From Sulfobacillus sp. (GTDB lineage: Bacteria > Bacillota > Sulfobacillia > Sulfobacillales > Sulfobacillaceae): a stretch of 64,000 nucleotides of DNA. Shown here piece by piece: positions 23,605-28,803 of the stretch. The notes beneath the pieces are model-generated. The model made no database searches, had not been told where the DNA came from, and worked only from the letters and a program-made list of their open reading frames with translations. Location of the stretch: NCBI GenBank assembly GCA_027309085.1, contig DAIDDL010000012.1, forward strand, positions 1 through 64,000, written 5' to 3'. Numbering within the stretch: the stretch's first letter is position 1; every line of letters starts with the position of its first letter. The translations under genes were made by a program, and so were the position numbers.

Positions 23605-25257
23605 TCAAAAGACGGGACGTTCCCGCCATGTTCCGAATACTGCCTTCATCACTTCCACAATTTCGCCTTCTGTGCACCCAGCCCGAACCGCCTCAATAAT
23701 GGCGGGCATGAGGGGTGCATCATCCTGGGCGCAAGCCTCCCCCAGGTCGCGCAAGGTGTCTTGAACACGCGACTCCAGGCGGCTGGCCCGCCACCGCCTG
23801 AGGGAATCCACCTGCTCCCTCTCCACCGACGGGTCAATCCGCAAGAGCGGGATCGACTCCCCGTCCTGCGGCTCTACAAAGGCATTGATGCCCACCATAA
23901 TCTGTTCGTGACTCTCCAGTTCCTTTTGGTAGATATAGGCGGCATCGGCAATCTCGCGCTGCAGAAATCCGTTTTCAATGCATTCCAACACGCCACCCTG
24001 TTCGTTAATGCGCCGGAAATAATCCTCAGCCATCTGCTCCATCTGGTCTGTCAGCGCTTCCACATAATAGGAACCGGCCAGGGGGTCGACCGTGTTGGGG
24101 ACGCCCGTCTCATAAGCCAGGATTTGCTGGGTGCGCAGAGCAATCTTGACGGCTTTTTCGGTGGGCAGGGAGAGGACCTCATCCATCGAATTGGTGTGCA
24201 GAGACTGGGTCCCGCCCAGTACAGCCGCCATGGCCTCATAAGCGGTGCGGACAATGTTGTTCTCAGGCTGCTGGGCGGTCAGAGAGCAGCCCGCCGTCTG
24301 CGTGTGGAAGCGCATGGTCCACGACTTGGGACTTTTTGCCCCATAGACTTCTTTAAGGTGCCGGGCCCAGATGCGGCGCGCCGCCCGGAACTTTGCAATT
24401 TCCTCGAAGAAGTCGATGTGGGAATTGAAGAAGAACGAGAGTCTGGGAGCAAATGCGTCAACATCCAGCCCCGCCTGGATGCCCGCCTCCACATACGCAA
24501 AACCGTCCGCCAGGGTAAATGCCAGTTCCTGCGCCGCAGTCGACCCCGCCTCCCGGATGTGGTAGCCGCTGATGCTGATGGAATTCCACTGGGGCACATA
24601 GCGTGTGGCATAAGCCATCATATCCACAATTACCCGCATCGACGGCTTCGGAGGGAAAATCCATTCTTTCTGTGCGATATACTCTTTCAAAATATCCGCC
24701 TGCAAGGTGCCCCGGAGGTTGTCCCACGACACTCCCTGACGTTCCGCCGCCACCAGGTACATCGCCCAGATAATCGGGCCCGGGCCATTGATAGTCATAG
24801 ACGTAGACACCTTTTCGAGAGGAATACCCTCGAACAGCCGTTCCATGTCTCCGACATGGTCAATAGCAACCCCCTCGCGGCCGACCTCCCCCAGACTATG
24901 CGCGTCGTCCGAGTCGTAGCCCATGAGGCTCGGCATGTCAAATGCGACAGACAGCCCCGTCTGCCCCTGGTCCAGCAGGTAGTGGAACCGCTCATTGGTT
25001 TCGCGCGCCGTACCGAACCCGGCGAACTGCCGCATCGTCCACAGCCGTCCGCGGTACATCGTCGGGTGGATCCCCCGGGTAAAGGGATAGGCGCCCGGTG
25101 TTTCCGGACTTGTTGCCTGTGACACATCATCTGCGTCATAGACCTCTTTGACGGGCAAGCCCGACAGCGTGCGAAAATTGCGGTGCCCCTGGTACGGATC
25201 TCCCGACGGCGAGGAACGCAACGCTGCAGAATGATGGTGAAATGCCTCGGTTGCCAT
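23605..25257 (-). CDS. Acyl-CoA mutase large subunit, isobutyryl-CoA-mutase-like
   Basis: Adenosylcobalamin-dependent carbon-skeleton mutase, catalytic TIM-barrel subunit, 550 residues. It lacks the C-terminal B12-binding domain, so it needs a separate small subunit, which is not in this window. In methylmalonyl-CoA mutase, Tyr89 and Arg207 hold the substrate carboxylate. Here these positions are Phe78 (WTMRQFAGFG) and Gln196 (EYIAQKEWIFPP), the pair found in isobutyryl-CoA mutase. A butyryl/isobutyryl interconversion is therefore more likely than succinyl/methylmalonyl. The ATG at 25257 has AAAGGAG 6 nt upstream. The leucine-dehydrogenase-like gene upstream fits branched-chain metabolism; a PduO-type adenosyltransferase occurs at 33 kb. 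Confidence 0.9.
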   Translation of the reverse strand: MATEAFHHHSAALRSSPSGDPYQGHRNFRTLSGLPVKEVYDADDVSQATSPETPGAYPFTRGIHPTMYRGRLWTMRQFAGFGTARETNERFHYLLDQGQTGLSVAFDMPSLMGYDSDDAHSLGEVGREGVAIDHVGDMERLFEGIPLEKVSTSMTINGPGPIIWAMYLVAAERQGVSWDNLRGTLQADILKEYIAQKEWIFPPKPSMRVIVDMMAYATRYVPQWNSISISGYHIREAGSTAAQELAFTLADGFAYVEAGIQAGLDVDAFAPRLSFFFNSHIDFFEEIAKFRAARRIWARHLKEVYGAKSPKSWTMRFHTQTAGCSLTAQQPENNIVRTAYEAMAAVLGGTQSLHTNSMDEVLSLPTEKAVKIALRTQQILAYETGVPNTVDPLAGSYYVEALTDQMEQMAEDYFRRINEQGGVLECIENGFLQREIADAAYIYQKELESHEQIMVGINAFVEPQDGESIPLLRIDPSVEREQVDSLRRWRASRLESRVQDTLRDLGEACAQDDAPLMPAIIEAVRAGCTEGEIVEVMKAVFGTWRERPVF

Positions 25258-25495
25258 ACGCAACTCCTTTCACGATAGAAATTCACCGGGTCCGAAAAAT
25301 GCGACCTCTCCAGCACTTCCTGATAAACTCGCGCAGCGCCAGACCGCCGCGGTCACAGACGTTCACCGGCTCCCGGTCCGGCCCTCATCTATTGTTTTCA
25401 TCATACACGGGGGTCCGGGGCTATTCAACGCTTCCTAATTGTCGTATTATTTCCTCTTAATCAAAGTTCCCCGGTCTTTATGCGACCGGCGATTG
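25258..25495. other. Intergenic region between the mutase and the leucine-dehydrogenase-like gene
   Basis: A 238-base gap with no gene. It contains no hairpin I would call a terminator and no clear promoter, so I cannot say whether the two genes share a transcript. Confidence 0.4.
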
Positions 25496-26584
25496 CTACT
25501 GGGCGGTTTTCGGATGATCTGGCGAAAAAATCCGGCGGATCGAATGCAGCAGGTCAATGCGCTCCTCAACCATGGCCATGGCGACGTCCACCGTGGACAG
25601 CCCTGTCTCATCTGCGCGCCGGAACACGTCTCCCAGCAGCTGATAGATATTCTCTACCTGGCGCCGCGCCCGTTCATCATTGTAGCCGTGAATTTCCGTG
25701 GCCCCTTGGATGAGGCCGCCCGCATTGGTCATAAAGTCGGGCGCATACAGTATTTGGCGGTCGCGGAGGGCATTTCCCATTGAAGGATCTTCCAGCTGGT
25801 TGTTGGCCGACCCGGCAATAATTTGGCAGGCCAGCTTGTCAATGGATCCCCGGTTGACCACATTGCCGAGGGCGCAGGGCGCCAGCACATCGCACGCGGT
25901 CTCGAGAATCGTCCACGGGTCCGCCGGCTCAATGTTGATCTCCGCGGCTGCTTTCCCGACCACATGGGGATTAATGTCGGCGGCGATGACATAGGCTCCC
26001 TCCTGCGCCGCCCGCCGCGCCAATTGATAACCCACCTTGCCCAACCCCTGAATGGCCAGTCTCCGGCCCTTGAGAGATGCGGAGCCAAACCGGTGGGACA
26101 GGGACGCGCGGATCGCCGCGATGACACCCTGTGCAGTCATGTCCCCGGTGTCTCCGGACCCGCCGTAGGCTTTAGGCAGCCCAATCAGGTAGCCGGTTTC
26201 CTTAGAAATCTGCACTAAGTCCCCTTCGCCAGTTCCCACATCCTCACCGGTAATGTAGCGGCCCTGCAAAGTTTCCACATACCGCCCAAACGCCCGGAAC
26301 AATTCTGCCGAGGGTTTCGCGGCGGGATCTTCGAGGATCACCGCCTGTCCCCCGCCAAAGTCAATTCCCGCCGCCGCGGCCTTATAGGTCATCCCTTCCG
26401 ACAACCGCAGGACATCTTCAATGGCAGCATCCTCTGACCCGTAGGGAAACAGGCGGCATCCCCCCAGGGCGGGTCCCAGTGTTGTGTCGTGGATCGCAAT
26501 AATCGCCCGCAACCCCGTAGTGTGGTCGAAATTGAAAATCACCTGCTCATGTCCCCGCTGAGCCATAGCCTTGAAGATGTCCAT
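25496..26584 (-). CDS. Leu/Val/Phe dehydrogenase family protein lacking the catalytic lysine
   Basis: 362 residues aligning over the full length with leucine dehydrogenase. The substrate-binding Lys68 (GMTYKAAAAG), Asp115 (ITGEDVGT) and the Rossmann GLGKVG motif are present. The catalytic lysine, Lys80 of leucine dehydrogenase (GGGK), is Gln80 here (FGGGQAVIL; the codon is CAG). In characterised homologues this lysine is required for catalysis, so the protein may be inactive, have changed chemistry or serve another role. The ATG at 26584 has AAGGGGG 6 nt upstream. It lies upstream of the mutase gene and 96 nt downstream of the CofE-like gene. Confidence 0.85.
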   Translation of the reverse strand: MDIFKAMAQRGHEQVIFNFDHTTGLRAIIAIHDTTLGPALGGCRLFPYGSEDAAIEDVLRLSEGMTYKAAAAGIDFGGGQAVILEDPAAKPSAELFRAFGRYVETLQGRYITGEDVGTGEGDLVQISKETGYLIGLPKAYGGSGDTGDMTAQGVIAAIRASLSHRFGSASLKGRRLAIQGLGKVGYQLARRAAQEGAYVIAADINPHVVGKAAAEINIEPADPWTILETACDVLAPCALGNVVNRGSIDKLACQIIAGSANNQLEDPSMGNALRDRQILYAPDFMTNAGGLIQGATEIHGYNDERARRQVENIYQLLGDVFRRADETGLSTVDVAMAMVEERIDLLHSIRRIFSPDHPKTAQ

Positions 26585-26680
26585 AGAATTCCCCCTTGTC
26601 TGCGACCAGTCTTATGAGAAAGTTCGCATTCCTCCCTATGACTTTAGCGGCAATGGCCACGCTTTGCAATGCCAGTGGGG

Positions 26681-27532
26681 TTAGGGTTTGGACTGGGTCG
26701 AGGCGACTTCGTCCCCCGCCCACACCAGGCCTCCGGCCCCTTCTCCCGGAACCATTCCCACCAGTCCGCCCTCTTGGCCGCCTAACGACACTGCAGGCCA
26801 TGCCGTATGCCGCGACGTCTCTGCCTGGGGTCTGAGAACCGCTAGCGGCGTCCGCTGGGCGCCTTGCCCCATGGGGTTGTCGCGCAGCAGAGTCCGCACC
26901 AGCTCTATGTCCACCCGTGACGAAGCGGCTAGAACTTCGGCGCCAATATCATTCACATCCACAATCGCCACTGGCGCGCGCAAGACCTTCGCCAGCCGCT
27001 CAGCGGTTTCCTTGGCGCGTTCGGGAGCCAGCACAATGTATTCATTATACGGGGGAATCGTCGTTGGTCCGGGGCCGTCAATAGCCGCAACCTTCCTTCC
27101 GGCAATGCGGTAGAAATCTCCCGACCGTCCCGTAATGCGGTCCATGGCCCCTGCCGATGCGGCAGCGAGAATTCTTGGCAGGCCAGCCTGGCGGATCGCC
27201 ATTTCCATTGTTTCCGGGCGGGCGAGACCCAGACCGTATCCCAGCTGGCGCACATGCCGCGCCAGCCAGCGAGCTGACCACCGCGGCTTGACTTGATTGA
27301 GCAGCACTGCGCGGCCCTCGGCGATCGCCACGACTTTTTCACCGATCACCACAATGTCGCGCGGGGTGACTTTTCCCTGAAAATACGGCACTACCGTCTT
27401 CAGCAGATCTTCTCCGGGCACTACCAGATGGCTGCGGACAACAAATCGGCAGAACTGCTGGTTGCCTGCTGTCCGTGCGGGCTTTTCAATCCAAGTGCCG
27501 TTGCCTTCGGAGTTGTTGACAGGACTCGCCAT
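26681..27532 (-). CDS. CofE-like (coenzyme F420-0:L-glutamate ligase family) protein
   Basis: 283 residues. The central part has the family's pattern: DIVVIGEKVVAIAEGR near 62-77, RPETMEMAIRQAG, GRSGDFYRIAGR, and PPYNEYIVLAP. Characterised CofE adds glutamate residues to F420-0. No other F420 gene is visible here, and many Firmicutes have such ligases without F420, so the substrate is unknown. I start it at ATG 27532, with GGGAG 8 nt upstream. The C-terminus is variable. It precedes the leucine-dehydrogenase-like gene and may share its transcript. Confidence 0.7.
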   Translation of the reverse strand: MASPVNNSEGNGTWIEKPARTAGNQQFCRFVVRSHLVVPGEDLLKTVVPYFQGKVTPRDIVVIGEKVVAIAEGRAVLLNQVKPRWSARWLARHVRQLGYGLGLARPETMEMAIRQAGLPRILAAASAGAMDRITGRSGDFYRIAGRKVAAIDGPGPTTIPPYNEYIVLAPERAKETAERLAKVLRAPVAIVDVNDIGAEVLAASSRVDIELVRTLLRDNPMGQGAQRTPLAVLRPQAETSRHTAWPAVSLGGQEGGLVGMVPGEGAGGLVWAGDEVASTQSKP

Positions 27533-27832
27533 GATCATCTCTCCCTTGCTGCATTGATACCATCTAGAGTATGCGGCCCGGGCGGCCGGGACACTTCACC
27601 CGCAGCGTCAGGTTCTTCCAGTGCGGCATCTTTTTCCCGTTCCGTTCAAATGATCCCAGCAGACTGCCCGCTCCACGACACTGGTATTGGCCCAGAACGG
27701 GCCTGCCTGAGCGGCAAAAAGCCCATGCCTAAAGATGTTGTCTTTGGCCCTAGGGCCTGAAGCCTCAGAGATGAGCGCATAAAAAAAGATGCTGGCCTGA
27801 AGAGGCCAGCATCAAAATATGCCCAGTTCCCA
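27533..27832. other. Intergenic region between fba terminator and CofE-like gene
   Basis: 300 bases without a gene. It carries the fba terminator at 27781-27813. The rest should contain the minus-strand promoter of the CofE-like gene; I see no good match. Confidence 0.5.
27781..27813 (-). terminator. Rho-independent terminator of the aldolase gene
   Basis: An 11-bp stem (27788-27798 with 27803-27813) with a four-base loop, followed on the minus strand by seven T residues, 20 nt past the stop codon. Confidence 0.95.
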
Positions 27833-28735
27833 CTATCCCGGGTAATTGGCTAAAAGCTGGTGAATATCTTCAGCCAACGTGATGGCTTCATGATACGACT
27901 GCTGCCAGACATTGCGGCCGAAAATCAGTCCCGTTGCACCGTTCTCCATACACAGCCGGGCCTTCCCCATGGTATCTTGCTCCGAAGCCTTCTCACCCCC
28001 AGCAAAAATCACCAAGGAGCGGCCGCCGGAGCGGATAATCTGCGCTAACGCCTCGGGCATGGTCCACTGCCGCTGGTAAACCTTGGGCGCATCAGTCAAA
28101 TCGGCGTCAACGTTGGGCACGTTGACCTTGATCACGTCGGCTCCCAGTTCCTGAGCAGTCCGGGCCGCATAATCAATAGCGTACACACTGTCCTTCCCGC
28201 CTTTGGCCTCAACTGCTGAGCCGCGGGGATAGCTCCACACCACTACCGGGAGCCCGAAGCGGTTGGCATCCTCGCGGACTTGGCGGAACTGCGCAAAGTC
28301 TTCCGCCTGCCGGGGGGACCCCACATAGAGCGTGTATCCCACGGCATCCGCTCCCATCCGGACAGCATCTTCAACCGAGGCATTCAGAGAGGAAAATGGT
28401 GCATCATCCGCGGGAATTTCGGTTTTGCCATTCAATTTCAGAATCAGCGGCACCTGTCCAGCATATTCTGGGTAGTACTTCTCTGCCAGCCCGATTTGGC
28501 AGGCAATAGCAGAAAAATGACCATCCAGCGCAATGCGAAATTGAAATGCGGGATCCTGACTTTCGGGCGCCTCCAGAAAATCACGGGGTCCATGCTCCAA
28601 TCCCTGGTCAATCGGCAGAATCATCAACGTCCCGTTGGCTGGTCCCGCCCCATATAAAAGCCGGTAAAGGCGTGCTTTTTTTCCGGCATTCAAACTTAAT
28701 TGATCGAGGTGCGTACGAGTCTCTAGACCTGCCAT
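27833..28735 (-). CDS. Class I fructose-bisphosphate aldolase (DhnA type)
   Basis: Schiff-base aldolase of the DhnA/archaeal class I type, about 300 residues. The catalytic lysine is in DVIKVNVPN; other family motifs are LPIDQGLEHGP (substrate phosphate region), YTLYVGS, WSYPRG and AGGEKASE. It acts in glycolysis/gluconeogenesis. The ATG at 28735 (MAGLETRT) is preferred, with AAGGGA 14 bases upstream; the frame stays open another 22 codons. The promoter lies upstream and a strong terminator downstream, so the unit is monocistronic. Confidence 0.9.
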   Translation of the reverse strand: MAGLETRTHLDQLSLNAGKKARLYRLLYGAGPANGTLMILPIDQGLEHGPRDFLEAPESQDPAFQFRIALDGHFSAIACQIGLAEKYYPEYAGQVPLILKLNGKTEIPADDAPFSSLNASVEDAVRMGADAVGYTLYVGSPRQAEDFAQFRQVREDANRFGLPVVVWSYPRGSAVEAKGGKDSVYAIDYAARTAQELGADVIKVNVPNVDADLTDAPKVYQRQWTMPEALAQIIRSGGRSLVIFAGGEKASEQDTMGKARLCMENGATGLIFGRNVWQQSYHEAITLAEDIHQLLANYPG

Positions 28736-28803
28736 AATGAATGCGTCATTCCCTTCGTTTTTCGGTTCGTTTTCTGTTCCCATCATAACAGACATTGTCA
28801 AAT

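Follow-up and report, generated by a model that had tools for sequence, protein, structure and literature searches.

A leucine dehydrogenase paralogue of Sulfobacillus with a rare, evolutionarily maintained glutamine at catalytic position 80

Introduction

Lys80 is the general base of leucine dehydrogenase (LeuDH), where it helps water to attack the alpha-carbon of the substrate. What becomes of such an enzyme when this lysine is replaced in nature? The question is raised by a gene, here called LDH2, which lies at 25496..26584 on the minus strand of the window, that is, the whole stretch of 64,000 nucleotides of Sulfobacillus DNA analysed here. An earlier note had read Gln at position 80 of its product, and the open reading frame, the strand, the coordinates and the codon (CAG) are all as described there. 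We have therefore asked how rare this glutamine is, when it arose, what has changed along with it, and which role the protein may have taken.

LDH2 as a leucine dehydrogenase-type protein

LDH2 encodes a paralogue of the Glu/Leu/Phe/Val dehydrogenase family with 362 residues and an ATG start, ahead of which a ribosome-binding-site-like sequence, AAGGGGGAATTCT, can be read directly (26585..26597, minus strand). Its residue numbering is identical to that of the Geobacillus/Bacillus leucine dehydrogenases, and codon 80, counted from the ORF start at 26584, occupies 26345..26347 (minus strand). The protein belongs to the Glu/Leu/Phe/Val dehydrogenase superfamily, as both domains lie above their Pfam gathering scores (ELFV_dehydrog_N, 90.2 bits against a cut-off of 25.3; ELFV_dehydrog, 77.8 bits against 23.4). 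It is about 46% identical to the leucine dehydrogenase 6acf, and the best Foldseek matches of its AF2 model (pLDDT 92.6) are LeuDH structures with TM values of 0.85–0.90, for example 8gxd at 0.90.

Compared with the LeuDHs of Geobacillus stearothermophilus (6acf/6ach) and Bacillus sphaericus (1leh), LDH2 is alike in fold, length, K68, D115 and NAD motif, but differs in having Gln for K80 and Gly for V294; it further has Gly for A113 and Leu for V291, two residues shared with most LDH2-clade members. According to the alignment, the Lys that binds the substrate carboxylate is encoded by codon 68 (26381..26383, minus strand) and the catalytic Asp by codon 115 (26240..26242, minus strand). LDH2 also retains D203 and the glycines of the Rossmann motif (G180/G182/G185), so that the NAD site is intact, and the view that the remaining active site had been spared holds in every residue named. 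That is, LDH2 has the fold, the sequence kinship, K68 and D115 of a LeuDH, but not its general base. A profile match would name LDH2 leucine dehydrogenase despite the missing key residue, and annotators should be cautious here. As for other family names, the best NCBIfam profile is the tryptophan dehydrogenase ScyB (NF035922; 5b37), which we rejected since its 341 bits are far below the equivalog cut-off of 600.

Rarity and origin of Gln80

We have aligned 120 distinct homologues, drawn from 41 related genomes and the GTDB species genomes. While K68 and D115 are invariant (120/120), position 80 is Lys in 118 proteins and Gln in two, namely the window LDH2 and its nearest relative, the LDH2 of S. 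thermotolerans Kr1, which is 83% identical (17% of residues differ). The alignment thus answers the earlier note's question whether close relatives share the Gln. The codon is CAA in S. thermotolerans rather than CAG. As Gln80 appears with different codons in two independently sequenced genomes, one of them complete, we reject a sequencing or assembly error, to which we give a practically negligible probability. Both species are acid-loving.

A DNA-pattern scan for MTYK...GG(G/A) followed by a codon starting with C, G or T, and so not by the A-initial codons of residues such as Thr, Asn, Ser and Met, found the window as the sole match among 398 genomes of the phylum; the Lys version of the motif occurred 23 times in 61 genomes of the phylum. 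Within the order (42 genomes), the non-A-codon motif was matched only in the window genome and S. thermotolerans. In the tree, the two Gln80 proteins form one clade (SH-aLRT 100) nested among LDH2 proteins from the genus and family that carry Lys80. Lys is therefore ancestral, and K80Q arose in a single event before the window species and S. thermotolerans diverged.

Apart from LDH2, the window genome encodes a single LeuDH homologue, LDH1 (L002, contig C150), which carries the canonical Lys80 and lies near a Spo0A-like gene; it also encodes one glutamate dehydrogenase. Since a canonical LeuDH is found elsewhere in the genome, the loss of Lys80 in LDH2 is affordable. The main text of the genome and proteome papers on S. 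thermotolerans does not name leucine dehydrogenase, and these papers describe branched-chain keto-acid dehydrogenase as upregulated under stress.

Expected effect on catalysis

In LeuDH, the K80A, K80Q and K80R mutants (Sekimoto et al. 1993) are severely impaired in catalysis (PMC12018205), in agreement with the earlier claim that this residue drives the reaction. According to the review, a K80 mutant has 1.5% activity, which 1 M ammonia raises to 20% of the wild-type level, and ammonia rescues K80Q less than K80A (PMC12018205). The laboratory K80Q protein (Sekimoto et al. 1993, via PMC12018205) is identical to LDH2 in substitution and residue; on the other hand, it is engineered and otherwise wild type, whereas LDH2 is natural, carries pocket changes and is maintained by selection. 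Judging from these mutants, LDH2 is probably a poor dehydrogenase that has lost normal catalysis. When water attacks the iminium intermediate, Gln80 would be unable to take up its proton, so that both oxidative deamination and reductive amination would be severely reduced.

Changes accompanying Gln80

At 12 positions (45, 46, 80, 85, 94, 134, 152, 161, 176, 246, 294 and 308), the Gln80 pair has a common residue that is absent from all 34 Lys80 LDH2 orthologues; among them, 80 alone is near-invariant across the whole homologue set. The earlier note had considered that another lysine could fill the site. None of the 12 changes brings in a Lys, and a replacement elsewhere in LDH2 was likewise rejected, as the pair shares no new lysine.

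Codon 294 (GGG, 25703..25705, minus strand, located by alignment) specifies Gly in the pair versus Val, Met or Leu in the Lys80 LDH2 orthologues, and Gly294 is also absent from the remaining aligned homologues. L40, A113, V291 and V294 are reported to be the four residues that set the side-chain specificity of LeuDH (PMC2723916; also PMC8766677). Of the other changes occurring together with K80Q, V134I is at a pocket position, and L/W46F is also seen. With the published literature list of active-site and pocket positions, to which K80 was added (30 positions in all), three of the 12 changes fall on the list; this enrichment does not reach significance (p = 0.07, or 0.22 when position 80 is left out). 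Clustering in the pocket is thus suggestive only.

Active-site changes are also seen elsewhere in the LDH2 lineage. The members of another sub-lineage (L025 and L027, from genomes G010 and G019) have three near-invariant active-site positions changed (G41A, A113T and N261S), N261 being the site altered in engineered amine dehydrogenases, and L028/L033 have T150A, also at a near-invariant position.

These observations bear on the possibility that LDH2 has become a new catalyst, in which Gln80 and a pocket enlarged by Gly294 would carry out an NAD(H) reaction needing no lysine base, for instance by reducing an imine that is already formed or the keto group of a bulkier substrate. K68, D115 and the NAD site are kept, V294G, V134I and L/W46F stand alongside K80Q, and the changes in the other LDH2 lineages suggest that the paralogue explores new substrates. 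Against this, the pocket enrichment is not significant, and a natural ELFV enzyme without the K80-equivalent lysine was not found in the literature searched. We consider this possibility unlikely, though worth keeping in mind.

Gene neighbourhood

Downstream of LDH2 lies the gene for an acyl-CoA mutase large subunit (23605..25263, minus strand), identified by profile match and alignments, so the adjacent mutase of the earlier note is the right one. In the alignments, the positions which separate methylmalonyl-, isobutyryl- and 2-hydroxyisobutyryl-CoA mutases are occupied by F, A and Q, a substrate signature that, in terms of the MCM/ICM/HCM families, we take to be of the isobutyryl-CoA mutase type. 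The neighbour is accordingly predicted from its residues to be an isobutyryl-CoA mutase, which would fit the catabolism of branched-chain amino acids. No B12-binding subunit is adjacent to this large subunit, and the two B12-binding-domain proteins of the genome are encoded on other contigs (G000:C99 and C115).

Upstream, profile match and synteny identify two conserved neighbours, an F420-0:gamma-glutamyl ligase-domain protein (26681..27538, minus strand) and a DeoC/FbaB-type aldolase (27833..28801, minus strand). The family models match only the N-terminal part of the former, with a score well below the CofE cut-off, and this protein stands beside LDH2 across the order. The order aldolase, F420-ligase-like gene, LDH2 and acyl-CoA mutase is kept in most of the bacterial order where contigs reach, and the block often continues with nudix, secreted protein and SDR genes. 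LDH2 is thus a full-length gene in a conserved position, as the earlier note had it.

This context hints at no substrate beyond branched-chain acyl-CoA metabolism, which weighs against new chemistry. It rather suits a weak leucine/valine dehydrogenase, in which residual activity of the Gln80 protein, with D115 and a bound water, would serve a low-flux role beside LDH1: a location by a predicted isobutyryl-CoA mutase is appropriate for valine catabolism, the remainder of the active site is intact, and a K80 mutant of LeuDH keeps about 1.5% activity (PMC12018205). However, selection for dehydrogenase activity should have brought Lys back, for which a single transversion suffices, and Gln has nevertheless outlasted saturated synonymous divergence; Gly294, unseen in other homologues, is not expected either. 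We regard a weak dehydrogenase as rather improbable.

Evolutionary constraint and gene retention

We have calculated dN between the two Gln80 species for LDH2 (0.120) and for the mutase (0.080), F420-ligase-like (0.125) and aldolase (0.108) genes. As dS is saturated in this pair, no dN/dS figure is obtainable. Since the dN of LDH2 is like that of its neighbours despite saturated synonymous sites, amino-acid change has stayed under strong constraint since Lys80 was lost. On the stem before the species split the picture is different: the stem-to-later-branch ratio is 1.03 for LDH2 against 0.30–0.67 in five neighbour genes. By approximate substitution counts, this excess is significant versus the pooled neighbours and most of them singly, the exception being the F420-ligase-like gene (p = 0.11). 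A burst that then gives way to normal constraint would be the pattern expected from a change of role, and it speaks for a new catalyst as well.

On the other hand, LDH2 is missing from two congeners (G001 and G006) although the mutase and nudix genes are still there, and in one of them the genes upstream of the LDH2 site also remain. LDH2 is therefore dispensable. This raises the possibility of relaxed constraint, that is, of a gene dispensable in the genus that has lost its catalytic residue and is gradually disappearing. We think this quite improbable, because the dN of LDH2 is no higher than its neighbours reach, K80 is the sole near-invariant column lost in both species, and each of them still has an intact ORF. 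Continued constraint and an intact ORF likewise led us to reject a decaying pseudogene as the main reading.

In the two congeners without LDH2, unrelated SDR-family genes are found 5' of the mutase gene (L142:6709-7413 (+) and L141:6228-6965 (+)); that of G006 is flanked by the F420-ligase-like gene and the mutase gene, at the expected place of LDH2.

LDH2 and its catalytic paralogue

LDH2 is an ancient LeuDH paralogue, present through most of the bacterial order. An LDH2-type gene adjoins an LDH1-type gene at L137, L138 and L139, in three genomes of the class that are more distantly related, and from this adjacency LDH1 and LDH2 are an old pair. Adjacent products of this kind could form a hetero-oligomer, for which adjacency is only suggestive.

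The superfamily has a precedent for an inactive partner: GdhA of Thermus thermophilus is an inactive regulatory subunit which acts with GdhB (PMC9570180). Thermus (3aoe) resembles the present case in the superfamily and in the presence of an inactive and an active paralogue in one organism (PMC9570180), the inactivity of LDH2 being presumed, and a paralogue with intact catalytic residues, LDH1, is indeed encoded in the same genome. GdhA/GdhB, however, are of the glutamate family, form a hexamer and are a proven complex, whereas LDH2 is of the leucine dehydrogenase type and a candidate partner of LDH1.

The reading we prefer, tentatively and at somewhat less than even confidence, is that LDH2 is a near-inactive pseudo-enzyme which would still bind NAD(H) together with an amino acid or keto acid, and which plausibly acts as a regulatory partner of LDH1. 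K80 changed to Gln once in the common ancestor, V294G arose on that branch too, and selection has kept K68, D115, the NAD site and the fold; as LDH2 is conserved and its binding sites are retained, a pseudo-enzyme role is judged the most likely. More speculatively, LDH2 might then serve as a regulatory subunit of the catalytic LDH1, like GdhA for GdhB in Thermus.

Several observations count against a pseudo-enzyme partner. If some catalysis persisted, one would likewise expect to find K68, D115 and the NAD site intact; the pocket enrichment is weak, and the stem excess does not reach significance versus the F420-ligase-like gene alone. In addition, LDH1 and LDH2 are on different contigs in the window genome, and the two congeners without LDH2 still have LDH1, which therefore does not need LDH2. 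Overall, the single K80Q event, the lack of a new Lys, V294G, the constraint and the published K80 mutagenesis are consistent with the loss or change of function that the earlier note had suggested, though they do not split a dead from an altered or a low-activity protein. In the open literature searched, with its limited coverage, no natural family member without K80 and no pseudo-enzyme of the family was found.

Implications

Gln80 in LDH2 is a rare and evolutionarily maintained substitution, whose functional meaning we infer. It is conceivable, if on balance doubtful, that LDH2 is the first natural pseudo-enzyme of the LeuDH fold, a selected K80Q ligand-sensing subunit that would form mixed oligomers with a Lys80 LeuDH and tune branched-chain amino-acid catabolism. 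A close Lys80 orthologue and the intact paralogue LDH1 are built-in controls for LDH2, and the Gln80 lineage, with its conserved gene, offers a natural test of what the LeuDH fold may do without its base, be it regulation, sensing or new chemistry.
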